Shown: positions 18,533 through 43,030 of the stretch, in pieces
Layout of the letters: each line of letters begins with the position of its first letter
Numbering within the stretch: position 1 is the first letter of the stretch
IMG/VR virus record: IMGVR_UViG_3300035698_018873
Coordinates: 1 to 64,000 of that record
Length of the DNA: 64,000 nt
Direction: 5' to 3' (one strand)
Source: a virus
Made by a program: the position numbers and the translations under genes
The notes under the pieces: generated by a model
What the model was told of the DNA's origin: nothing
Seen by the model: only the letters and a program-made list of their open reading frames with translations
The model's database searches: none

Positions 18533-20488
18533 TCATAAGCAAATCAAGAATCTAATTTTAGATGCTTCAGGAATTTTTCTTAGCGAATTTAACGATGCCC
18601 AATTTGCTTCAGAATAGTTATTCTTTTTGGCTTGATCATAAACAGTCTTCTTGTGTATTCGTATGTTTTGTCTATTTTTATAGTGATAACTTGGCCTTGT
18701 TTCACCATCACGCTTCCATCCAGCGGCTTGATATATTGCCCCAGTATGTCCTTGAGTTGTATCTGCGAAAGATACTAACATTAATATGTCATCATTGTTT
18801 GACTTATATTTTTTAACCACTCTGGACAAAAACCAGGAGGCCAAATTCTTCTTTTGGAAATTAGGATTAATACAAAATCGTACCAGTTCTCTCATTTGTG
18901 AAGGTTCCAAATTTTGTTTATAAGCTGTTTCTTGTCTGGTTATTGGTCCTATTGTAGCTGAGGCTATCAGTTTATCCCCTAAATATGCTCCTAGCGTAGT
19001 GCCATGCCTGCCTGATATTCCAATATAGTGAAATGCCTGATAAAATGGCAAATAGATATCAGGGTCTATTTCTTTTAAAACAATATCATTAAATTCAAAT
19101 GATATTGTTTTAAAAGAATCTTCTATGAATTCCCCCACTTTTATGAAATTATTAGCTGCAACTATGAATTTATCTTTAAATTTATCAAATCCAGATAATA
19201 TTTTTTGCCTTTCTTTGTCTTTCATTCTGAGCCAGTCTGATTTAATTTCAACTATTGCAAATTCGCCATTGCTTAACCATAGCCTAAAATCTGGAACAAA
19301 ATGTCTTGCCCCATCATGTTCATACTCAATTAAATCAAAATCTCTTTCAATAAATTTAATATTTTCATTGGCGTCACACCATTTTATGAAATTCTCTTCA
19401 TAGGATGAATCAAAAGGCATTTCACCCCACCTAGAACTGACAACTCCTCTTTTAGAATTGCATTTGCCATTTTTCCTAAGTATTGATGTGCGTTTTGAAG
19501 CTTTATATCTATTTGTGATATCAGACCAGTATAAAGCTTGCTTCTGCCTAACTACATCGACATATTGTGGGTTGTCTTTCCAAAATTTCTTACCATTAAT
19601 AGATCCAATTTCTTTGCACAATTTTTTAACATCATCTGAATGTTCTTTGCCATAAAATGGGTTGCCACTGCCACTAAACATCTCAGAAACTGTAGTCGGA
19701 ATTACATTTTTGGCTGCTAATGCATTTGAAACAGTGGTTATAGTGCAGTTATACCTTTGAGCAACTTTTGACATATTACCATGATGTTTATAAGCTTTTA
19801 TCAATTCATCTTTATCGAATATAGTTTGTTGTTCTGATATGGTTTGTATTTTTATATTGTTCTTTTTTAATTTGTGAAATACAAACCCAACGCTTCTATT
19901 AAGAAATTTGGCTATAGAAGACATACCATGTAAAGAATATGCTGATGACCACCATTCTTCATTATCTTTGTATTCTGGTAATGATACTTTTTTAATAGAA
20001 TCGATTTTATTTTTAATTATGATTTGTTTTCTTATTTTAATTTTATTATCAATTAAAACATTTTTAATTGCATAACTGCTTATTTTGTATTTTTTAGACA
20101 ATTTATTAATAGACATTAAAGTGTAGTCTTTGCATATGCCAACAGAGTCAATGCTTTCAGATATAGGTGCGATATCAAGCTTTTTACAGATGCGATTGAC
20201 AGCAGATGCAGACGATCCTGCCAAATCTGCTATTTGTTGCATAGTATAACCTTTTGGCCTAAGGTCTTTTACTTTTTCTATCAAGCCATCGTCAAATTTT
20301 GACTTTTGAGCATCAATGTGATTGCGCGATCCAACGCCAATTCTCTTTAACAATTTCATCACTGATCTTCTTGGTATACCAAACTTTTCTCCTATTTCTT
20401 TTTGTGTCATGCCATCGTTGTAGTTGTTAGTGATTTCTTGTTTCTGATTATCAGAAAACAAATCTTCCAATGCTTCTCTTGAACTCAT
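18533..20488 (-). CDS. HTH5-NUMOD3-PD-(D/E)xK nuclease with Mom-like C-terminus
   Basis: A 651-residue multidomain protein. Residues 17-262 hold about five helix-turn-helix units (for example MTQKEIGEKFGIPRRSVMKLL). Residues 274-300 (GSGNPFYGKEHSDDVKK) match the NUMOD3 DNA-binding motif of homing endonucleases. Residues 360-450 form a PD-(D/E)xK nuclease: Glu364, then VPD400 and VEIKS with Glu414/Lys416. Residues about 470-620 (FHYIGISGRHG, ELVRFCINP, SFADTTQGHTGAIYQAAGW) match the Mom family of GNAT-like DNA adenine-modifying enzymes. It is the last gene of a three-gene unit with an HNH nuclease and a methyltransferase. It is probably a homing-type or self-protecting nuclease; activity is unproven. 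Confidence 0.7.
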   Translation of the reverse strand: MSSREALEDLFSDNQKQEITNNYNDGMTQKEIGEKFGIPRRSVMKLLKRIGVGSRNHIDAQKSKFDDGLIEKVKDLRPKGYTMQQIADLAGSSASAVNRICKKLDIAPISESIDSVGICKDYTLMSINKLSKKYKISSYAIKNVLIDNKIKIRKQIIIKNKIDSIKKVSLPEYKDNEEWWSSAYSLHGMSSIAKFLNRSVGFVFHKLKKNNIKIQTISEQQTIFDKDELIKAYKHHGNMSKVAQRYNCTITTVSNALAAKNVIPTTVSEMFSGSGNPFYGKEHSDDVKKLCKEIGSINGKKFWKDNPQYVDVVRQKQALYWSDITNRYKASKRTSILRKNGKCNSKRGVVSSRWGEMPFDSSYEENFIKWCDANENIKFIERDFDLIEYEHDGARHFVPDFRLWLSNGEFAIVEIKSDWLRMKDKERQKILSGFDKFKDKFIVAANNFIKVGEFIEDSFKTISFEFNDIVLKEIDPDIYLPFYQAFHYIGISGRHGTTLGAYLGDKLIASATIGPITRQETAYKQNLEPSQMRELVRFCINPNFQKKNLASWFLSRVVKKYKSNNDDILMLVSFADTTQGHTGAIYQAAGWKRDGETRPSYHYKNRQNIRIHKKTVYDQAKKNNYSEANWASLNSLRKIPEASKIRFLICL

Positions 20489-32271: not shown

Positions 32272-33579
32272 CTAATTAACATAATATATGAATCTTTTTA
32301 ATGGAGGAGTGTGCATTTTTCTATATTTAAAATTTGATGCAAAATCATTTTCATTCATGTGCATTCCACGTGCTTTATTCCACAAAGTCTTTTTGTGCAT
32401 TTTCCAACCATCATCATTAACATAAAAATACGAACTGGTTGTATTACCATCAAATTTCCAATTACTTGCTTTGTATATTGTACCATCATGACCTTGCATT
32501 GGATCAGAATAAGAAACCAAAATTTTTGCACTAGTGTTAGCTTTTATATATTTTATTGCTCTTTTTAAAAAATACGAACAAGTATTTTTATTATAATAAA
32601 ACGGAGATACAGCTAGTCTTGACAATTCCAAGCATTCTTCTTTTTTAACACCAAGTCTATCATAAATCTGTTTTCTTATTGGATGAACAAACATAGCGCA
32701 GCATACTAACTTGTCATCTATGAATCCACCATATGCAATTCCATTTCTTCCAGATCCTCCAAGATAATGAAATGACCCAAAAAAAACTTTGTATTCATCT
32801 GTTTTGACAATCTTAAATTCAAGATTTTTTAAAGATATATTATTAGGCTTGTAGTCATTAATTTTACACCAATGCTTTATTAATCTTATGACTTCATCAC
32901 AATCAGCTAACTGCGATTCCCATATGATCTTTAATTCATAGTCACTTATTGATTTTATATAAGATTCTTTGGCTTTGTCTTTTACTATCACATTTGGCCT
33001 AGTATGCCAATAATTACCATTGACCTCCAATAAAATCTTTTTAACACCAGTATCAATCATAAAGTCAAATGTGTACGGCCCAACACGATATTGGTGAGTA
33101 TGCTTAACACCAAGACCATTCAATATTGATATCATATTAACTTCAGTTGATGGTGTTTTATGCATCTGTTTAATAAGAGCTACAGCGTGTTTTTCTCTAT
33201 AATCATTATTGGCCCAAGCTGCAATGGCAGACTCTGAACATTTTTGTTTATTTTCAGGAAGATTAACGGCGATAGTATGCTTGTTTTTATATTCATCGTC
33301 TGACCATAATTTTATACTACTTTTAGATCTTTCTTCTCTATAGTCTTTGTCTTTCCATTTTTCAAGTGACGACAACTTTAACTTATTTCTTACTTCGTCT
33401 ACTGATCCTACGCATTTATGACAAAGCCAATCAATATTATTATTAACAATTTTTGATTTTATTCTTATCGTTAAATTGCTTATTTTCCCACATTTATCAC
33501 ACACAACAATTACTTTTGGCCTATACCCAGTTATGCATGATGTTCCGTATTTCTCTTTAGTTAAAACCCAATCAATCAT
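32272..33579 (-). CDS. Vsr-like homing endonuclease with Mom-like C-terminus
   Basis: A 435-residue protein. The N-terminus MIDWVLTKEKYGT with CDKC/CHKC zinc pairs is shared with the HNH gene at 21707. Repeated linkers KxWxDxxY cover residues 70-140. The nuclease core is YRVGPYTFDFMID (Asp172), LLEVNGNYWH (Glu185, His192) and IIWESQL, as in Vsr-like (EDxHD) homing enzymes. Residues about 255-400 (FHYLGGSGRNG, ELSRLAVSP, SYSDPMQGHDGTIYKASNW) match the Mom-like domain also found at 18533. It is inserted between terminase and portal and starts within one base of the terminase stop. Confidence 0.75.
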   Translation of the reverse strand: MIDWVLTKEKYGTSCITGYRPKVIVVCDKCGKISNLTIRIKSKIVNNNIDWLCHKCVGSVDEVRNKLKLSSLEKWKDKDYREERSKSSIKLWSDDEYKNKHTIAVNLPENKQKCSESAIAAWANNDYREKHAVALIKQMHKTPSTEVNMISILNGLGVKHTHQYRVGPYTFDFMIDTGVKKILLEVNGNYWHTRPNVIVKDKAKESYIKSISDYELKIIWESQLADCDEVIRLIKHWCKINDYKPNNISLKNLEFKIVKTDEYKVFFGSFHYLGGSGRNGIAYGGFIDDKLVCCAMFVHPIRKQIYDRLGVKKEECLELSRLAVSPFYYNKNTCSYFLKRAIKYIKANTSAKILVSYSDPMQGHDGTIYKASNWKFDGNTTSSYFYVNDDGWKMHKKTLWNKARGMHMNENDFASNFKYRKMHTPPLKRFIYYVN

Positions 33580-35501
33580 TATTTATTAAAATACGAACGC
33601 TTATTTCTTGATGCAGGCATTTGAGCTTTTTTTTGTTCTAATGGTATTCCACCACCAAGCTGGCCAACAAATATAGCCAATTCTTGATCTGCAGACATTC
33701 CTTGAGTTGGTTCCCCAGACGTTAACATTGGATACATTAAATCATTACCGCCTTTTTGTAATATCTCATCCATCGTTAAATCTATCCTTTTTTCAAATCC
33801 AGATTCTATCTCTTTAGAAGATGTTGGTATTAATCCATCTGGAGTCTGAAGAGCATCCATTTTTCCTAAGCACGCTAATCCGCCAGCCGTCATTAAGTCA
33901 TCATTATTACCAGATCCAGGCTCATTGCCCACTTTTCCATTACCCAAATGAATATAGATCTGAGCTTCTGCCTGTAGCCTGGTCGATCTAAACAAAATGC
34001 CGTCATTTTCTAACCCAAAATGATCAATAATGGCCTTGACTATTTCTGGTTTGCTAGATCCAGATATAGGAAATCCAGGTTTTTTATCTTTTTTGCCAGA
34101 CGACAATCTTCTAAAAAACAGATTGGGATAATAATAAATAGATTTTAAATCCTGAGATACCGTTTTGCCAATACCAGTGCTGTCAACAATAACCAAAGCA
34201 TTATTGTAAAGTCTTCCCAAATAATCAATCATTTTGGTAAATTCAGAAGGTTCACATTTTATTTTAAGTTCAGCTACTTGTCTATTAAGAGTAACATCAA
34301 CTATTTCTATAGTTGAGAAGTCACTAGCTTCACCAGATGAAATATCAGCCCCAAGAGAATACCTATGACCTGGATTTCCTGGAACCATTATCCTATTATT
34401 TTCAATTACATCAATGGTCTTTTGGACAGGAAGTTCCCAAACCCATAAACTTTTCTGAAAATCAAGGAGAATATTATTAATATTAGCATTTGAATTGCTA
34501 TATCTTACTGGTTGAGTTCTTATTTTATAATTTTCATCGAATGTTTTTTCTAATATAGTTAAGGCCTGAGGACTAAGTACAGTATTGCCTACGCCAATAA
34601 ATTCCATTAATATTTCTTGTCTAAACTTCCAAGATTCACCTTTTTCTTGCAATTCATTATATTGAGTAACAAGCCAAGGACTTTTGAAATCACCGTACTT
34701 GTTCTTGTCTTCTATTGATTTACATTTTTCAATATTATCACATGGCGCAATACGAATATTCTTGCCACTAATCTTATCTTTAAACTCAATAACCCAGTCC
34801 ATCTTCCACCATGGGATCTCAATGCCATGAAAGTTATTGGTCTTAACTAAAGAATCTTCCCATGTGTGGTGATACCAATTGCCCTTACCATTAGAAGTGG
34901 AAATAACGATGACTCTACCACCATGCATTAACGTGGGCTGGCCAGCAGTCCACATAGCTTCCATTTCTGGGATAAATCCAGCTTCGTCAATGATAACCAA
35001 AGAAGCAGTATTTGATCTAAGTGTGTCTTTAGAACTGGTAAGTGATTTTATTTCAGAACCATGAAAAAATTCTATTGAATGTTCATTATATGACTTTGGA
35101 GATTTGAATTTTTTAGAACCAAAATCTCTTGGATCACCAAAAGCCTCAAACATCCATTCTGGCAATTCTTCATAAACAAATTTCACATTTCTATCTAAGT
35201 AACCTTTAGCATCTTCATCACGTTTAGATACAATTAATACTTTTCTATTTGGGAAAAACATTGCCACCCAAAGAGCATATGCACCAGTTAGGGTTGAAAT
35301 ACCAGACTGGCGACATTTCCTATAAATTATTCGATCATGCTTTTTAAAATCTTTTATTGATTTCTTTTGATATCCAAACAATTTAAATGGTATAATTCCC
35401 GCGTTAGGATGTTTAATCTTGCAAAAGTGTTCGCAAAAAAACGCGAATGATTTTCTGCATTCGTTTAATAATTTGAATTTTTGTATTCTAGTTAGTGCCA
35501 T
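33579..35501 (-). CDS. 17: Large terminase subunit (gp17-like)
   Basis: A 640-residue packaging motor. The ATPase has a Walker A-like RKCRQSGIST (61-70), Walker B LVIIDEA (168-174) with catalytic Glu, and motif III STSNG (201-205). The RuvC-like nuclease has GADIS with Asp386, VIVDSTG with Asp440, and a C-terminal Asp pair in GNNDD. It cuts and pumps DNA into the prohead through the portal. Its ATG overlaps the end of the upstream nuclease gene by ten bases, so its translation may now depend on that element; AGG lies six bases before the ATG. Confidence 0.96.
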   Translation of the reverse strand: MALTRIQKFKLLNECRKSFAFFCEHFCKIKHPNAGIIPFKLFGYQKKSIKDFKKHDRIIYRKCRQSGISTLTGAYALWVAMFFPNRKVLIVSKRDEDAKGYLDRNVKFVYEELPEWMFEAFGDPRDFGSKKFKSPKSYNEHSIEFFHGSEIKSLTSSKDTLRSNTASLVIIDEAGFIPEMEAMWTAGQPTLMHGGRVIVISTSNGKGNWYHHTWEDSLVKTNNFHGIEIPWWKMDWVIEFKDKISGKNIRIAPCDNIEKCKSIEDKNKYGDFKSPWLVTQYNELQEKGESWKFRQEILMEFIGVGNTVLSPQALTILEKTFDENYKIRTQPVRYSNSNANINNILLDFQKSLWVWELPVQKTIDVIENNRIMVPGNPGHRYSLGADISSGEASDFSTIEIVDVTLNRQVAELKIKCEPSEFTKMIDYLGRLYNNALVIVDSTGIGKTVSQDLKSIYYYPNLFFRRLSSGKKDKKPGFPISGSSKPEIVKAIIDHFGLENDGILFRSTRLQAEAQIYIHLGNGKVGNEPGSGNNDDLMTAGGLACLGKMDALQTPDGLIPTSSKEIESGFEKRIDLTMDEILQKGGNDLMYPMLTSGEPTQGMSADQELAIFVGQLGGGIPLEQKKAQMPASRNKRSYFNK

Positions 35502-36913
35502 AAAAACCTAATACTACCAGCATTCCATAATCTTCTGAAACCATTGTTGAACATATTTTGGGCTCCAGATAAATTGTGGTCATATTCATCTAATTTTTCA
35601 TTTAACTTGTGCTTTTGGTATTTTTGTCTATTAAAAATATTAAATTTGTCAGTGTAGTAATATCCTGGTTTAGTTATGCCGTCAACAGCAAATCCCAATT
35701 TTTTATACAGATTGCCATCAGAATACCTTCTATCAGCATAAGTCATTATCATATCTGGTTTAATATTGCGAACAAACAGCTTGAACAACCTGCCAGCACC
35801 ACCAATCACATTCATGTTAATTTTATTAGCGAATCTTGATATTTCCCATCCATATTTATTGTGTCTATTGAACCCAATGCAGCAAACCAAAACACCATCA
35901 TAACGCAATCCATACCTGATACTAGAATTTTTAGTTGATCCTTGCAAATGATTTTGATCCATAAATTTTTCGAATTCTTCGAATCCAATTTCATCTACTG
36001 TGCATTTCCTAGCGCCAATGCGTTGGTTTTTATTAAATCTAGATAACAACATTGATTTAACAATATCAGTGTTATTTGTCCATTCACTCTCGAAAATCTG
36101 CAATAGACTAATGCCGTTATTCAATGCCAAATCGCATTTATCATAATGCTTATACTTTTCTTGTTTAGTTTCAGTAGATCCAAAAGAGTGCCAAAACAAA
36201 CCATGACATTCTATGCCAATGCTGCCAGACAATATGTCTATTTCAAATGGTTTTATTGCTTTTCTATCATTAACAACACATTCAACATCATTATCAGCTA
36301 GAAATTCAGCAATTTCTTTATGAAATTTGGTTACAATAAAAGAGCATTTAGGGCAACCTTTTCCTTCTAAATGATTGTTAGGTTCCTGCTTGAATATACC
36401 ATGCTTTTTGCATATTATGTTTATATTGCTTTTGTTGTGTTCATACTCAACTGTTGAATAATCATAGACATCGCCATGTTTATCTTTGGCTCTTTCTATA
36501 AACTGGTCATTAGTTAAAGTTCTAGAATTATGAGAACGATCTAATCCGCATTTTGGACATCCCTTGCCTTCCGCGTAAGATCTGTTATTTATTTTCACTT
36601 TCCCATGTTTATTGCATATAATATAAGAATTTTTATCACCATATGCAATTATTTTATGTTGCGTACCATAAATCAAAGTGCATTTAGCAATGAAATGATC
36701 TTCACCTTTTTTTAGTCTATTTTTATTAGCTGTTTTTCTACATTCAGGGCATGGGTATTTGCTTCTTAAATGCTCTGATGGTTTTTGCTCAAAAACCAAA
36801 TCATGTTTATTGCAAATTATCTTTACTAATACTCCAGACCCCATATAATCTACTAGAGAATAATCATAAGCATCACCATGAACGGTTGTTGACTTATCAA
36901 TAAAATTAGCCAT
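35492..36913 (-). CDS. EDxHD (Vsr-like) homing endonuclease
   Basis: A 473-residue protein. Three zinc repeats at about 6-60, 69-124 and 133-192 follow the pattern YDYS, then C-x-x-H, HL, and C-P-x-C. The nuclease core is FEIDIL (Glu224, Asp226), then IGIECHGLFWH (Glu235, His242), the hallmark of Vsr-like homing enzymes such as I-Bth0305I. The C-terminal part (NHLQGSTK, ISRFANK, TYADRRYSDGNLYKKLGF) is a GNAT-like domain common in this group and distantly similar to the Mom-like domains at 18533 and 32272. It lies between the candidate small terminase and gp17 with overlaps on both sides. Confidence 0.85.
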   Translation of the reverse strand: MANFIDKSTTVHGDAYDYSLVDYMGSGVLVKIICNKHDLVFEQKPSEHLRSKYPCPECRKTANKNRLKKGEDHFIAKCTLIYGTQHKIIAYGDKNSYIICNKHGKVKINNRSYAEGKGCPKCGLDRSHNSRTLTNDQFIERAKDKHGDVYDYSTVEYEHNKSNINIICKKHGIFKQEPNNHLEGKGCPKCSFIVTKFHKEIAEFLADNDVECVVNDRKAIKPFEIDILSGSIGIECHGLFWHSFGSTETKQEKYKHYDKCDLALNNGISLLQIFESEWTNNTDIVKSMLLSRFNKNQRIGARKCTVDEIGFEEFEKFMDQNHLQGSTKNSSIRYGLRYDGVLVCCIGFNRHNKYGWEISRFANKINMNVIGGAGRLFKLFVRNIKPDMIMTYADRRYSDGNLYKKLGFAVDGITKPGYYYTDKFNIFNRQKYQKHKLNEKLDEYDHNLSGAQNMFNNGFRRLWNAGSIRFLWH

Positions 36914-37529
36914 TTAATAAACTCTGAACATCATCATTTGTTAACGACTCATCTTCTGATTTGACAGCGATAGAGTCATTATTTTTAAGAGCAGCAAATA
37001 ATTTGGCAATTGAATCCATAGTTGATGCTCTATTTCTGGAAATATCAACCTTAGTTTGAAGCAATTGAGCTACAGCTTGAATATCAGCAGCACGATAATT
37101 ATCTTGTTCAACTTTTGGCAATAGCATACCTATTATGTCATCAGCCTTTTTACGATCAGATTCTGCTTCATCAAACATCATTTCAGCACTATCGCAGTGC
37201 CTTTTCAAGAGACCTAGCACATTTTCTTGAAGCTTTTCTCTTTCCTCATCAACTCTATCTGCAACAACACTAGTTTTTGAAATTATGTTGTCGTATCCAT
37301 CATCGTCATCGTCATCATCATCGTCATCATCATCATTGTTATTACTAACCAGGCTATCTTCAAAGTCATTTAGTTGAGGCTGAGGTTCTGGCTGAGGCTG
37401 AGGCTGAGGCTCTGGCTCTGGCTCTAATTCTGGCTCTAATTCTGGCTGAGGTTCTTCATTTTCTGCCTCTTCTATTTCTTCTAACAATCTAGCTAAGGCT
37501 GGATCAATATTATTAAGATCTTCACTCAT
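36906..37529 (-). CDS. Candidate small terminase subunit
   Basis: A 207-residue protein upstream of gp17 (separated only by the homing nuclease), the position of T4 gene 16. The first 85 residues are low complexity, with Glu/Pro and Gln/Pro repeats and then an Asp run. The remaining 120 are helical with heptads (RDEEREKLQENVLG-like; VDISRNRASTMDSIAKLF), compatible with the ring-forming helical core of small terminases. No HTH is seen. The call is from context and helical pattern only. Confidence 0.5.
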   Translation of the reverse strand: MSEDLNNIDPALARLLEEIEEAENEEPQPELEPELEPEPEPQPQPQPEPQPQLNDFEDSLVSNNNDDDDDDDDDDDDGYDNIISKTSVVADRVDEEREKLQENVLGLLKRHCDSAEMMFDEAESDRKKADDIIGMLLPKVEQDNYRAADIQAVAQLLQTKVDISRNRASTMDSIAKLFAALKNNDSIAVKSEDESLTNDDVQSLLNG

Positions 37530-37876: not shown

Positions 37877-39841
37877 TTATTCATCATCATCATAGTAAAA
37901 AGAATTATCTTCTTTGTTATCAAAATCTCTCATTTCCAAAATATTAACTGTAAATTCATCTCTGTGATATCTTATTATTTTCAAAAATTGATTTATAGTA
38001 ACATTATCTAATCCGCTAGCGTCCCTTAATTTTGTTTTAAATCCATCATGTGGCTTATCATCAGTCAGCCATATTTTTCTCATTGATATAACTAATGTAA
38101 CAAAATCATTATCATAATCACAAAACGACTTTAATTCTTCTAAAAAGATTTCAAAATCTTCAATTGACTTAGACTTAGTTTTTTGTTTGCGTATTACAAA
38201 GTCTTTGTAAGACGGCATATTCTTCTTGTCTCGTTTTTCCTTTTTTAAGTATGCTAAAATCCTGGTCTTCGCCACTTGGCTGTTGTGAGAAATGAATCCA
38301 TTGGCAATATATGAACTGTGTTCAGATGATACTTGGATTTCACAAACATCTGATTCGGTCTTGCTTATGCTATTAACTGGTAGCCAAACAATATTGTTGT
38401 GCTTGCCCATCCCTTCAGCTAACCTATCAATAATAAAGCGCATATCATCGTCATCATCAGGTACATCAAGGTTCGCTAATTTTACCCCAACTTTATTGAA
38501 ATCACACAACCCAGTTTTTGACTTACGCGCAGATCTTAATTTAGATATACTATCTGGTATACTGTGCTTGGAACATAAGTCATTTATTTTTGAAGACAAG
38601 CCATATCTGAGCATCTTTATATTGCGTAAATTGCGTAAATTGATCTGTTTTCTTACAATGCTAAATCCTATCGTGTCATAAAACTTTAGAGAGTCTAAAG
38701 ATGACAACAAAATCTGGACAGCGCCAAGTAAACTACTGCTGCATTCTTTCTTATCATTGCTGATTTTTGATATAATACCTAAGTTTAATAGCATTAATCT
38801 TATTTGACCAATCAGCTCTTTAGACGTAGAAATATACCCAACATTGCCATTATGCCTAGAAGAATGCCCGTCACCATCAAACATCCCTTGTAATGCAGAA
38901 ATAACGACTTCTCTTGTTGATTTTAAAATGACATTTGGAATAATTTTTGAGTCAGCCTTTAACCCAGAGAGACCAATAAGTTCAATGAATTTAACAAATC
39001 CAACGTTATGAATATGAACTGCTTGTCTTTTCGGATAGTGTTTGCACAACAAGCCAATAGTATTATTGACCAACTTATTAATAACTTCCGTATCAATGTT
39101 GTATATGATCACACAGTTATTACCAACACAGCCTTTTGCAATATATAGCCCAATTACATATGCCAATTCGCAATCAATATCACCAACAGACCACAATTCG
39201 TCGTTAAAATCAACCTCAATCTCATTGACAAAGGTATTTTGATTATATTGAATACCAACTAAGTCACCTTCTTTTAAATCTCCAGATTTTGCCCATTCTG
39301 GGCCTTTATCACTCAATCTATATAACAAATGTTCTGGCGTGCAAGTGATATCATACCCAAGCTCAACCATTATTTTATTAACGCCTTTTCTATTTTTAAC
39401 AACATTAGCAACAATATCTGTTATTCCATCTATCCCATACGTTTTTGTATTACCATCACCAATAGCATTAGAAATATGTTTTATACCATCTTCTGTAAAA
39501 ATATTGGTATCTGGAGCAACGCACCACATATTAAAAACTTTTGGTGACCCTGGAGCATTATTATATTTATAAAGAGTTTTTTCTATTTGCATCCAAGCAA
39601 CTTGAAACAGCTCATAAAATGACGATTGATCTCTTCCTGGAAAAATATATTCAAAATTATGTGCCCTTATTATTTGTCTTATGAGTTCTTCTGCATGTAT
39701 CATTATTTCATCACGCAAACAAATATCAACACACCCTCTACCTACATATCTATTCAAAAGTTCTTCAACTTTTGGATTATCAAAATACATATTTTTCTTT
39801 TTGGGTGCAGCTTTTTTTACAATTTTGGGAACTGGCAACAT
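37877..39841 (-). CDS. 55: Late sigma factor (gp55-like) interrupted by an intein
   Basis: A 654-residue precursor. Residues 1-106 plus 521-654 make a 240-residue sigma-like protein. The joined segment SSFYELFQVAWMQIEKTLYKY ... KVFNMW/SQVAKTRILAYLKKEKR is a sigma region 2, as in T4 gp55, which recognises late -10 elements. Residues 107-520 are an intein with splicing blocks and two LAGLIDADG motifs. The insertion falls inside the DNA-binding part of region 2, so splicing should be needed for activity. The ATG directly follows ATGTAAATATATC with no Shine-Dalgarno. The UvsW-like helicase gene lies upstream. Confidence 0.8.
   Translation of the reverse strand: MLPVPKIVKKAAPKKKNMYFDNPKVEELLNRYVGRGCVDICLRDEIMIHAEELIRQIIRAHNFEYIFPGRDQSSFYELFQVAWMQIEKTLYKYNNAPGSPKVFNMWCVAPDTNIFTEDGIKHISNAIGDGNTKTYGIDGITDIVANVVKNRKGVNKIMVELGYDITCTPEHLLYRLSDKGPEWAKSGDLKEGDLVGIQYNQNTFVNEIEVDFNDELWSVGDIDCELAYVIGLYIAKGCVGNNCVIIYNIDTEVINKLVNNTIGLLCKHYPKRQAVHIHNVGFVKFIELIGLSGLKADSKIIPNVILKSTREVVISALQGMFDGDGHSSRHNGNVGYISTSKELIGQIRLMLLNLGIISKISNDKKECSSSLLGAVQILLSSLDSLKFYDTIGFSIVRKQINLRNLRNIKMLRYGLSSKINDLCSKHSIPDSISKLRSARKSKTGLCDFNKVGVKLANLDVPDDDDDMRFIIDRLAEGMGKHNNIVWLPVNSISKTESDVCEIQVSSEHSSYIANGFISHNSQVAKTRILAYLKKEKRDKKNMPSYKDFVIRKQKTKSKSIEDFEIFLEELKSFCDYDNDFVTLVISMRKIWLTDDKPHDGFKTKLRDASGLDNVTINQFLKIIRYHRDEFTVNILEMRDFDNKEDNSFYYDDDE
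38282..39523 (-). other. LAGLIDADG intein (414 residues)
   Basis: It begins with Cys107 (CVAPDTNIFTEDG, block A). Block B is ITCTPEHLLYR with the TxxH histidine. Two endonuclease motifs are visible, VIGLYIAKG and LQGMFDGDG (the second well conserved, the first with Lys where Asp is usual). The end is SSYIANGFISHN with the His-Asn pair, followed by Ser as the first C-extein residue. All splicing residues are present, so it should excise itself. The first LAGLIDADG copy may have lost a catalytic acid. Confidence 0.93.
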
Positions 39842-39876: not shown

Positions 39877-41751
39877 TCATTTTATAAATTTTGGTATTTT
39901 TTTCCTTGACTTGAGAAAATCAACTGCATCAATAACAGTGCTACCAAATGCAATCTTTGCGACATAACCCATCTCAACAATATATTTCAGTCTTTTTCTG
40001 CTGTGGTCAATCAAGTACCAATTACCAGTAAAATAAAAATCTATAACTCTCGACCATCTTCTTTCATTTTTTCTTACTGCTCTGCCAACAATTTGATCAA
40101 AATTGCTTGATTTTTTGCCACCACCAATAAGTATCAAATTATGACATCCACCACCAAGATCCATACCTCTTTTGCCAACTTTGCTAACTATCAAAGTCTT
40201 AATATCACCATCTTCAAACCCTTTTATAGCTTTAATCCTATTCTTTGGCGATACCTTATTGAATATAAACGACGAATCAGGTAAAATTCTTTCTAATTCA
40301 AGACCCAACGGCTCAATACTGTTAGTATCAATAATAATTAAATTCTTTTCATTTTTAAAATTATTAACCATTTTTGAAATAACTTTATGAAAATCAGGAT
40401 TTTCTATAATTATTTCTTTTTCCGCAACGTCAAAAGCAGTCTTGTCTTGTGGATCAATATCTCCAAATTGAACCATACAATATTTAACTGGTTGTATTTG
40501 ATCTATTTCTTCCAATTCTTTTCTTTTAGATCTTGATATAACTGGCCCAAATCTGCCTTTTAAGATCATCTTCTGAACTGGTTTATCTGGGTCATACGGA
40601 GTGCCACTAAAACCATGAACATATCTTCCCTTAAACCATTCATCAAATAAATGATCATAATTTTTTGAAGCAGCGTTGTCCATTTCGTCAATTAATAACA
40701 ATTCGCAGTTGCCAACCATGTTCTGCAAAATGCCAGTCTTTTTTATTAAAGTATGATAAGATTTTAATGCTATCTTGAAGTATTTTTCTCTTTCGTATTC
40801 ATGAAACACTTCTATAGCTTTAGCAAGTTGCTTATCAAAATCACTCGTTACACTAGCGAATTTTAACAAGTCAACATCTTTTATACCTATTTTTTCAACC
40901 AATGATATTTCACTAAGTTCTTTTTCAATATCTTCAATATCCATTTTGAATTTCGACTTGCATTTGTCAATGACATTAGAAGCAGACCATACAAGCTTCC
41001 CTTTTAGTCCAATAATGGCCGACAATTTATCGCCATCTTTTTCAGACATGCTCTTAAAGTCTTTATTCATTGTTGACATTTTAATCTTAAAATTTTTTCT
41101 CATCGGCTTTTTAGGAGTGCTCAAAGCTGCAATAGAGCCAACACATACCAAATTACCATCTGGCATTTTGCCAGAATAAAACTCACCAACATCATCATGG
41201 TGCACCACATTAAATAACTTTAAGCTGTCTGTTATCTGGTTTAAAACAATAGTTTGTTCAGTTATTATCACAGTTGGGCATCTAAATAGCTTAACAATAC
41301 CAGCCATCATAGCTGATTTTCCTGCCCCAGTTGGATGAAAATGCGTTCCTATTTCAAACAATATTCCAGCAACACCCTTTTTTGATGCCTGACAAACAGA
41401 ATTTAAGCATCTCATTTGGTGATCGTGGGCCGTAATGCCATCAATTAATTTATTATCAAAAGATCCGACTGCTGGTATAGGATATTTCGACTTTTCTCTT
41501 ACATCAACCACTTCATAAGGAAAGTCATGTTCAATACATAATTCTATTAATTCTTTTAAATAACCTTTTCTTAATGACTGAGATTTTCTGTTGTAATATT
41601 TATAATATCCATCCCAAACACCATTCTTCATGGCCCTCTTGCGCATTGCTTGAGGGTCTTTTACTCTAAAATGTTTGTTTATAACAGACTCCTGCATCTC
41701 AAACACTTGGGTGAGTTTGAGCATACAGTTGTCTTCTATTATTATTTGCAC
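39877..41751 (-). CDS. uvsW: UvsW-like superfamily 2 helicase
   Basis: A 624-residue helicase. TGAGKS (141-146) is the Walker A, LLLIDEMD (352-358) is motif II (DEMD rather than DExH), SGTP (382-385) is motif III, and QIVGRAVRKNERR is motif VI. The N-terminus, with VWDGYYKYYN, matches the small DNA-binding domain of T4 UvsW (YGNWDGRIRL). An extra segment at about 215-345 enlarges the first RecA lobe. The GTG at 41749-41751 is preferred because it preserves this N-terminus. UvsW remodels R-loops and replication forks and drives recombination-dependent replication. Confidence 0.85.
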   Translation of the reverse strand: MQIIIEDNCMLKLTQVFEMQESVINKHFRVKDPQAMRKRAMKNGVWDGYYKYYNRKSQSLRKGYLKELIELCIEHDFPYEVVDVREKSKYPIPAVGSFDNKLIDGITAHDHQMRCLNSVCQASKKGVAGILFEIGTHFHPTGAGKSAMMAGIVKLFRCPTVIITEQTIVLNQITDSLKLFNVVHHDDVGEFYSGKMPDGNLVCVGSIAALSTPKKPMRKNFKIKMSTMNKDFKSMSEKDGDKLSAIIGLKGKLVWSASNVIDKCKSKFKMDIEDIEKELSEISLVEKIGIKDVDLLKFASVTSDFDKQLAKAIEVFHEYEREKYFKIALKSYHTLIKKTGILQNMVGNCELLLIDEMDNAASKNYDHLFDEWFKGRYVHGFSGTPYDPDKPVQKMILKGRFGPVISRSKRKELEEIDQIQPVKYCMVQFGDIDPQDKTAFDVAEKEIIIENPDFHKVISKMVNNFKNEKNLIIIDTNSIEPLGLELERILPDSSFIFNKVSPKNRIKAIKGFEDGDIKTLIVSKVGKRGMDLGGGCHNLILIGGGKKSSNFDQIVGRAVRKNERRWSRVIDFYFTGNWYLIDHSRKRLKYIVEMGYVAKIAFGSTVIDAVDFLKSRKKIPKFIK

Positions 41752-41767
41752 TTATTTAAAATACATA

Positions 41768-43030
41768 TTAATCTTTGTTGTCTTCTTTTTCTTCAGAATT
41801 TTCTGCACCAATAACAGCCAAAATAGGCTGAACGTGCATTCCTATAATCGAATTCGCCATTTCAGAAAAGTACTTACCAGTCAATTTAGCAGACGCCATT
41901 TCACGGGCTTCTCTAATCACTTCCCCATCAACCTGGCCAAGAATACTTTCATTTCCTTCCGCAACCACATCATCAACAGTCAATCTGTCAGTATTAACTT
42001 TGGCAATAGCATGTCTAGTCACACCATTAATACTAGCATCAACACTAATTTCTTGGTGTTCACTAAGAAGTTCGTGTTCTAATTCCAGTATGTCTTCAAG
42101 TATCATTAACGCCGCTTTTGCAGCAACCCACAATCTGGATTCACCTATACCCATTGATGATAACGCATCCTCTTCAGACCCAATACCACTGCCACCAAGA
42201 TATTCAGTTATCTTAGCAGTTGCTTTTTTCCTTATTTGAGAAACACGAACATTACTCACACCTAAAGCAGCCGCTATCTCTTTAGTAGCCTTTGGGTCTC
42301 TATCCTCACCACCTTTAGACATACCAAAAGTAGCCAACATAACAGCTTGTTCAGTCTGCGTTAAACCAATTTCCTCACTGTTGAACAAATTCAACAGCAA
42401 TTCTCTTCTCTGATTATGTGACTTCTCTGCTTTTTTGCCAGAATCAGGGTCACCTGGAATAGTAGAAGCAAACGTCGCTGCGCCATCTTCTTTACCCATT
42501 GGGGTATCAGCACTAACACTAGCTCTAGAACCTTTAAGAAAATCAGTCTTACCACCAGCGTGAGGCTTAACACCAGACACATTTGAAGATGCTGCTGCGC
42601 CTCTTTTGATTTTGGAATCTAAATATCTCTTCACATGAGTGGTAAATGGAGCAATTCCTTTGTCATTTTTAGCAGCATCCCAAACAGCCTCAACACCAAA
42701 CGAAACAGCCTCATCTACGCTAAAGGTTGGCGTCTGGTATCTTCTAGCAGTATAAATAATAGATGGTTTTAAAGCAGAAACAAGCTCATCTAATGTCCAA
42801 CCCTTATCTAACGGCTTTATAACCTTTTTTAAATCATTTAATGCTTTTCCAGGTTTTGGGCTAGGTATGCCAGTCCAATCAATAGAAGAACCATCTGCAT
42901 CTTTGTACGTTTCTTTAGGTTCTTCTGGTTCTTCTGGTTCTAAATGAGAATATGAATCAACATCAATATTTTCTTCATCTTCTACCTCTTCAAAAATTTT
43001 ATTCATTTTATCATTAAAATTAAAAGGCAT
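41768..43030 (-). CDS. Sigma-70 family factor, phage-type
   Basis: A 420-residue protein. Residues about 85-147 resemble region 2 (SIIYTARRYQ, then DEAVSFGVEAVWDAAKND, then THVKRYLDSKIKRG). Residues 220-278 are a region 4 helix-turn-helix (GLTQTEQAVML ... TKEIAAALGVSNVRVSQIRKKA). A Ser/Gly-rich linker separates them, and a 130-residue C-terminal extension follows that is not part of usual sigma factors. It therefore has a -35-type reader, unlike the gp55-like protein. Having both in one late cluster suggests two promoter classes. CGGAGAAACC precedes the ATG. Confidence 0.8.
   Translation of the reverse strand: MPFNFNDKMNKIFEEVEDEENIDVDSYSHLEPEEPEEPKETYKDADGSSIDWTGIPSPKPGKALNDLKKVIKPLDKGWTLDELVSALKPSIIYTARRYQTPTFSVDEAVSFGVEAVWDAAKNDKGIAPFTTHVKRYLDSKIKRGAAASSNVSGVKPHAGGKTDFLKGSRASVSADTPMGKEDGAATFASTIPGDPDSGKKAEKSHNQRRELLLNLFNSEEIGLTQTEQAVMLATFGMSKGGEDRDPKATKEIAAALGVSNVRVSQIRKKATAKITEYLGGSGIGSEEDALSSMGIGESRLWVAAKAALMILEDILELEHELLSEHQEISVDASINGVTRHAIAKVNTDRLTVDDVVAEGNESILGQVDGEVIREAREMASAKLTGKYFSEMANSIIGMHVQPILAVIGAENSEEKEDNKD

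Follow-up and report, generated by a model that had tools for sequence, protein, structure and literature searches.

A phage gene interrupted by an intein

The DNA analysed is a 64,000-nt stretch of a viral genome (positions 1 to 64,000 of IMG/VR record IMGVR_UViG_3300035698_018873; hereafter, the window). On its minus strand, a 654-aa open reading frame (37877-39841) comprises a 414-aa intein, a selfish protein element expected to splice itself out, and a 240-aa host protein, the latter being what is left when residues 107-520 are removed from the precursor. The gene lies between a UvsW-like helicase gene and a terminase large subunit gene (Table 1), and this order, uvsW, sigma-like gene, terL, is kept in most of the loci that we compared.

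Table 1. Coordinates of the interrupted gene, its intein motifs, and its conserved neighbors in the window
Feature	Position	Strand	Description	Basis
UvsW-like helicase	39877..41751	-	Conserved upstream neighbor of the sigma-like gene	
N-extein	39524..39841	-	N-terminal portion (106 codons) of the sigma-like host protein; contains the region 2.2-like helix	Homologs
Intein	38282..39523	-	414 aa; class 1; Cys1...His-Asn, then Ser+1	
Block B	39329..39340	-	TPEH of the splicing domain, residues 168-171	
Endonuclease block C	39131..39160	-	YVIGLYIAKG; catalytic acid replaced by Lys (AAA, 39134-39136)	Comparison with 15 inteins
Endonuclease block E	38864..38887	-	GMFDGDGH, intact	
C-extein	37877..38281	-	134 codons and stop; region 2.3/2.4-like helix, predicted C-terminal helix-turn-helix, acidic tail	
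Terminase large subunit (gp17-like)	33579..35501	-	Conserved downstream neighbor	

Several other genes of the window deserve mention, all of them on the minus strand. Directly upstream of uvsW is a gene for a second sigma-like protein of 420 aa (41768-43030), which matches phrog_351, reaches the Pfam cut-off for Sigma70_r4, and has a weak region 2 match; only the closest relatives of the window (L002, L011, L051, and L052) have a homolog in this position. A free-standing HNH endonuclease (35492-36913), common to the window and L002, is encoded between the sigma cluster and terL; in L011 and L094, relatives of it lie in inverted orientation next to the intein-bearing sigma gene. In the product of 36906-37529, shortly before terL, a stretch of aspartates comes after an E/P/Q repeat; the gene possibly occupies the position of the small terminase. 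Two Mom-like DNA modification proteins (32272-33579 and 18533-20488) carry additional domains: an endonuclease-like N-terminal part in one and helix-turn-helix (HTH) domains in the other.

The open reading frame matches two Pfam families above cut-off, Intein_splicing at E = 6e-10 and LAGLIDADG_3 at E = 1.5e-15, and contains intein blocks A, B, C, E, F, and G. Sequence features expected of a class 1 intein are present: a cysteine at the first position (Cys107 of the precursor), which is common to all related inteins; a TxxH motif in block B (TPEH); and the C-terminal junction SHN/S (the slash marks the insertion or splice boundary here and below). An initial sequence-only reading of this DNA had listed the open reading frame, Cys107, TPEH, two LAGLIDADG-type motifs, His-Asn, and Ser+1, and each of these is indeed in the sequence. 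It had also placed the insertion at NMW/SQVAK and predicted a 240-aa extein, which agrees with our comparison. The intein call is not a matter of chance, since intein-free homologs cross this junction uninterrupted and other contigs carry the same intein in this position.

Both endonuclease motifs are likewise present as had been claimed, but only the second is intact. Motif 1 is GLYIAKG; its Lys stands in place of a Glu common to all 15 related inteins compared, so that the window intein lacks the pair of catalytic acids expected of an active LAGLIDADG enzyme. Most related inteins keep both acids; motif E is lost in the L012 intein. By this comparison the window endonuclease has probably lost one catalytic acid (E to K) and would hence be impaired, and this copy of the intein may be past homing. 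The substitution is compatible with a homing cycle in decay or with an error in the sequence.

Fold and identity of the host protein

Structures were predicted for intein-free relatives rather than for the spliced window protein, whose exteins are not contiguous in the translation. With 55 intein-free homologs as input, AlphaFold reached a pLDDT of 84. In each of two Foldseek runs against 350,542 PDB chains, sigma factors make up 49 of the 50 top matches. These matches include T4 gp55 (7d7c_F; probability 1.00, TMt 0.67), and among viral models the gp55s of phages KPV15 and Moby are matched with TMt 0.69 and 0.62, the named viral models being mostly sigma factors. The Foldseek E-values are moderate (best about 0.01), and the sigma conclusion thus rests on the consistency of the matches; the low global TM-scores we read as uncertain domain arrangement in the predicted models.

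Sequence comparisons point in the same direction more faintly. Pfam Sigma70_r2 gives weak matches in four of the 55 homologs at E up to 1 (best E = 0.00069), with no family member above cut-off and no match to the window extein. The L002 and L008 records have weak Sigma70_r2 matches at the place of the gene, and phrog_351 matches five family members. Searches of Pfam, PHROG, and PDB sequences with the extein or its family returned no significant sigma match. That the extein is some other helical DNA-binding protein would accord with the lack of any single sequence beyond the family cut-off and with the empty PDB sequence searches. We consider this very improbable, however, given that two AlphaFold models retrieve almost only sigma factors from the PDB chains, that the named viral models mostly agree, and that in a profile comparison the DLxQ...LYKF stretch of the family pairs with DLIQ...VDKF of RpoD. 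The predicted models therefore support a sigma-like host protein at the level of the fold, as the sequence-only reading had proposed for the exteins.

That reading had gone further and called the protein a gp55-like late sigma factor. The evidence supports a sigma factor, of which a late gp55 is a plausible candidate identity: we give slightly less than an even chance to this protein being the gp55 orthologue and true late sigma of these phages, which would be compatible with the explanation that we favor below for the intein. The sigma2 part is well matched by gp55 structures, and an hhalign comparison with gp55 aligns the core in the expected register (P = 0.0025; full alignment, 0.041). Across 15 related, possibly incomplete, records, a gp55 profile detects no further gp55, whereas it is positive in all four T4-like control records, whose sequences are also among the profile rows. 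Located beside uvsW and terL in a structural gene cluster, the gene encodes a protein that ends in an acidic tail. Against this, there is no convincing full-length gp55 match, and a shallow family alignment gave no hhalign match to T4 gp55 alone (nor to the nearby 420-aa sigma-like protein). The family adds a predicted C-terminal HTH-like domain to what in gp55 is a sigma2-only architecture with a C-terminal sliding-clamp-binding motif, and the second sigma-like gene lies just across uvsW. Nor are T4 late-promoter octamers enriched: TATAAATA occurs eight times in the scan against 8.15 expected, and a look at upstream k-mers revealed nothing. Of the earlier proposal, the sigma-like fold is supported, and gp55 identity and lateness are conjectural. 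A helicase-gp55 gene order shared with Acidovorax phage ACP17 was considered and dropped, the match between its helicase and the window UvsW being weak (E = 0.022).

Empty and occupied alleles at two sites

Relatives were collected by scanning IMG/VR with the host protein. Most homologs are intein-free and have KVFNMWSQVAKT uninterrupted at the site; this majority reads FNMWSQVAKTVILA straight across the junction, giving dozens of homologs with unbroken host sequence. The site of the window, which we call site b, is occupied at the same codon boundary in nine others (L002, L010, L012, L013, L017, L094, L096, L131, and L129). A related intein occupies a second site (site a, QTAW/CQIE), 23 residues upstream in window numbering, in L011, L076, L078, L084, L093, L134, and L137. 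Both sites are occupied in the L129 gene, and the overlapping contig L137 has the same arrangement. In the first scans, at least 12 of about 86 distinct loci are occupied; the fraction is a lower bound, since keeping the 80 best among 114 matches favors uninterrupted genes.

Three further observations concern these relatives. In L013, L014, L015, L017, L094, and many other homologs, a zinc-ribbon-like insertion (CxxC...CPxC) separates the region 2.2-like helix from the 2.3-like one. The 341-kb L096 record (G007) has several intein-domain matches in different genes of the one phage record. The L010 intein (L010:7890-10016) ends in Ser-Asn (SN/S) rather than His-Asn, and its N-extein ends in FNMF rather than FNMW; judged from these residues, it may splice differently.

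One pair of alleles, L076 (occupied) and L080 (empty), differs at site a by an exact insertion of 1,272 bp (424 codons); identity on the two sides is 95.8% over about 4.3 kb and 94.1% over about 4.0 kb. On a 66-row tree of exteins, the presence of the intein requires nine to 10 changes, about the number obtained with shuffled labels. The inteins themselves divide nearly by site in their own tree; the exception is the L010 intein, which is at site b but falls among the site a inteins, in a fork whose inner order is unsettled. This placement hints at a move between sites.

The sites can be located on the sigma2 region by means of gp55, for which the contacts have been described: Y97 stacks on the −12 adenine and T99 touches the −8 adenine, while E70, D74, and E77 touch the clamp helices of RNA polymerase (PMC7892883). 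In the hhalign register, KVFNMW/SQ of the family falls on NPHAYI/TQ of gp55, and site b is thereby placed in the promoter pocket, the equivalent of sigma region 2.3 and of the gp55 pocket for the −10 element. The alignment supports this placement, and the earlier suggestion that the insertion lies in the sigma region contacting the −10 element is borne out by it. An ungapped count back along the same helix suggests that site a may lie at or beside the clamp-contact residues, give or take a residue or two; the exact contact residues of the family protein we infer from sequence. Since the inserts break the sigma2 surfaces for −10 DNA and RNA polymerase, an unspliced precursor should be inactive.

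A probable homing element in a sigma-like gene

We propose, with a probability of roughly 0.85, that an ordinary homing LAGLIDADG class 1 intein has entered a sigma-like factor encoded by one clade of uncultured T4-like myoviruses, at its conserved sigma2 region. The intein anatomy, the empty and occupied alleles, the two sites, and the predicted sigma fold are what sequence and computation provide; we infer that the intein splices and that it has no regulatory role. One 654-aa chain would be translated as the precursor, Cys107 would begin an N-to-S acyl shift, the N-extein would pass to Ser521 (the +1 residue), and cyclization of Asn520 would release the 240-aa sigma protein. The precursor would be blind to promoters, its insert splitting the residues equivalent to those with which gp55 holds the −10 element. 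Splicing would then be required because the precursor should fail at promoter recognition, and an intein whose splicing is required and whose imprecise loss is harmful would persist. Spread of the parasite would have invaded two sites of one gene, with repeated gain and loss.

The sequence-only reading had instead suggested that splicing gates the sigma factor, slow or conditional excision delaying the active protein and so timing a (late) class of transcription. Such a gate is mechanistically possible. The insertions lie at positions equivalent to promoter and RNA polymerase contacts, where the precursor is probably inactive; splicing residues are kept despite the damaged endonuclease motif of the window and the loss of motif E in L012; and conditional splicing is reported for other natural inteins (PMC5790916, PMC6195587). 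However, any intein is expected at a critical site, and this one is absent from most homologs, including a phage about 95% identical to one occupied at site a, with a distribution on the tree about as scattered as shuffled labels. With empty alleles in the majority and so close an empty relative, a required timing role is unlikely, and we regard the gating explanation as improbable. So scattered a presence and absence is better explained by a parasite that homes than by a timer that the phage needs.

The intein has known parallels. The nearest nonsigma relatives of the sigma-gene inteins in viral contigs are in TerL-like proteins (junctions of the type VIVIS/C...HN/TPNG). These class 1 LAGLIDADG inteins share the splicing domain, endonuclease type, and motifs, but at about 24-35% identity, and the host here is a sigma-like factor. 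In mycobacteriophages, TerL has several intein insertion sites at active centers (PMC5050341). Haloarchaeal MCM-a and MCM-d are neighboring intein sites (PMC10643990) and resemble the present case in being close sites in one gene, singly or doubly occupied; the host gene is different, and the two sites of the sigma-like gene are separated by 23 residues in window numbering, many relatives having a zinc-ribbon-like insertion in the interval. With T4 gp55 the family shares a sigma2-like fold, on which the insertion sites map to or beside the clamp-helix and −10-like element contacts, although sequence similarity is weak, a C-terminal HTH-like domain is added, and the gp55 rows inspected are intein-free.

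No inteins in sigma factors were reported in the open-access literature searched, the main intein catalogs being outside its scope. We file the sigma-like factor as an apparently new host, here with two sites, of a familiar kind of element, although prior reports of sigma-factor inteins may exist. By tblastn, three family members found no homolog in 50,697 cultured phage records; the analysis reveals a widespread sigma-like family in uncultured T4-like, often very large, phages that falls below cut-off in the family libraries used. A putative transcription initiation factor joins the host proteins colonized by inteins, and the natural pairs of occupied and empty alleles, together with a gene that has two sites, offer material for asking if an intein placed in a master regulator affects regulation at all.
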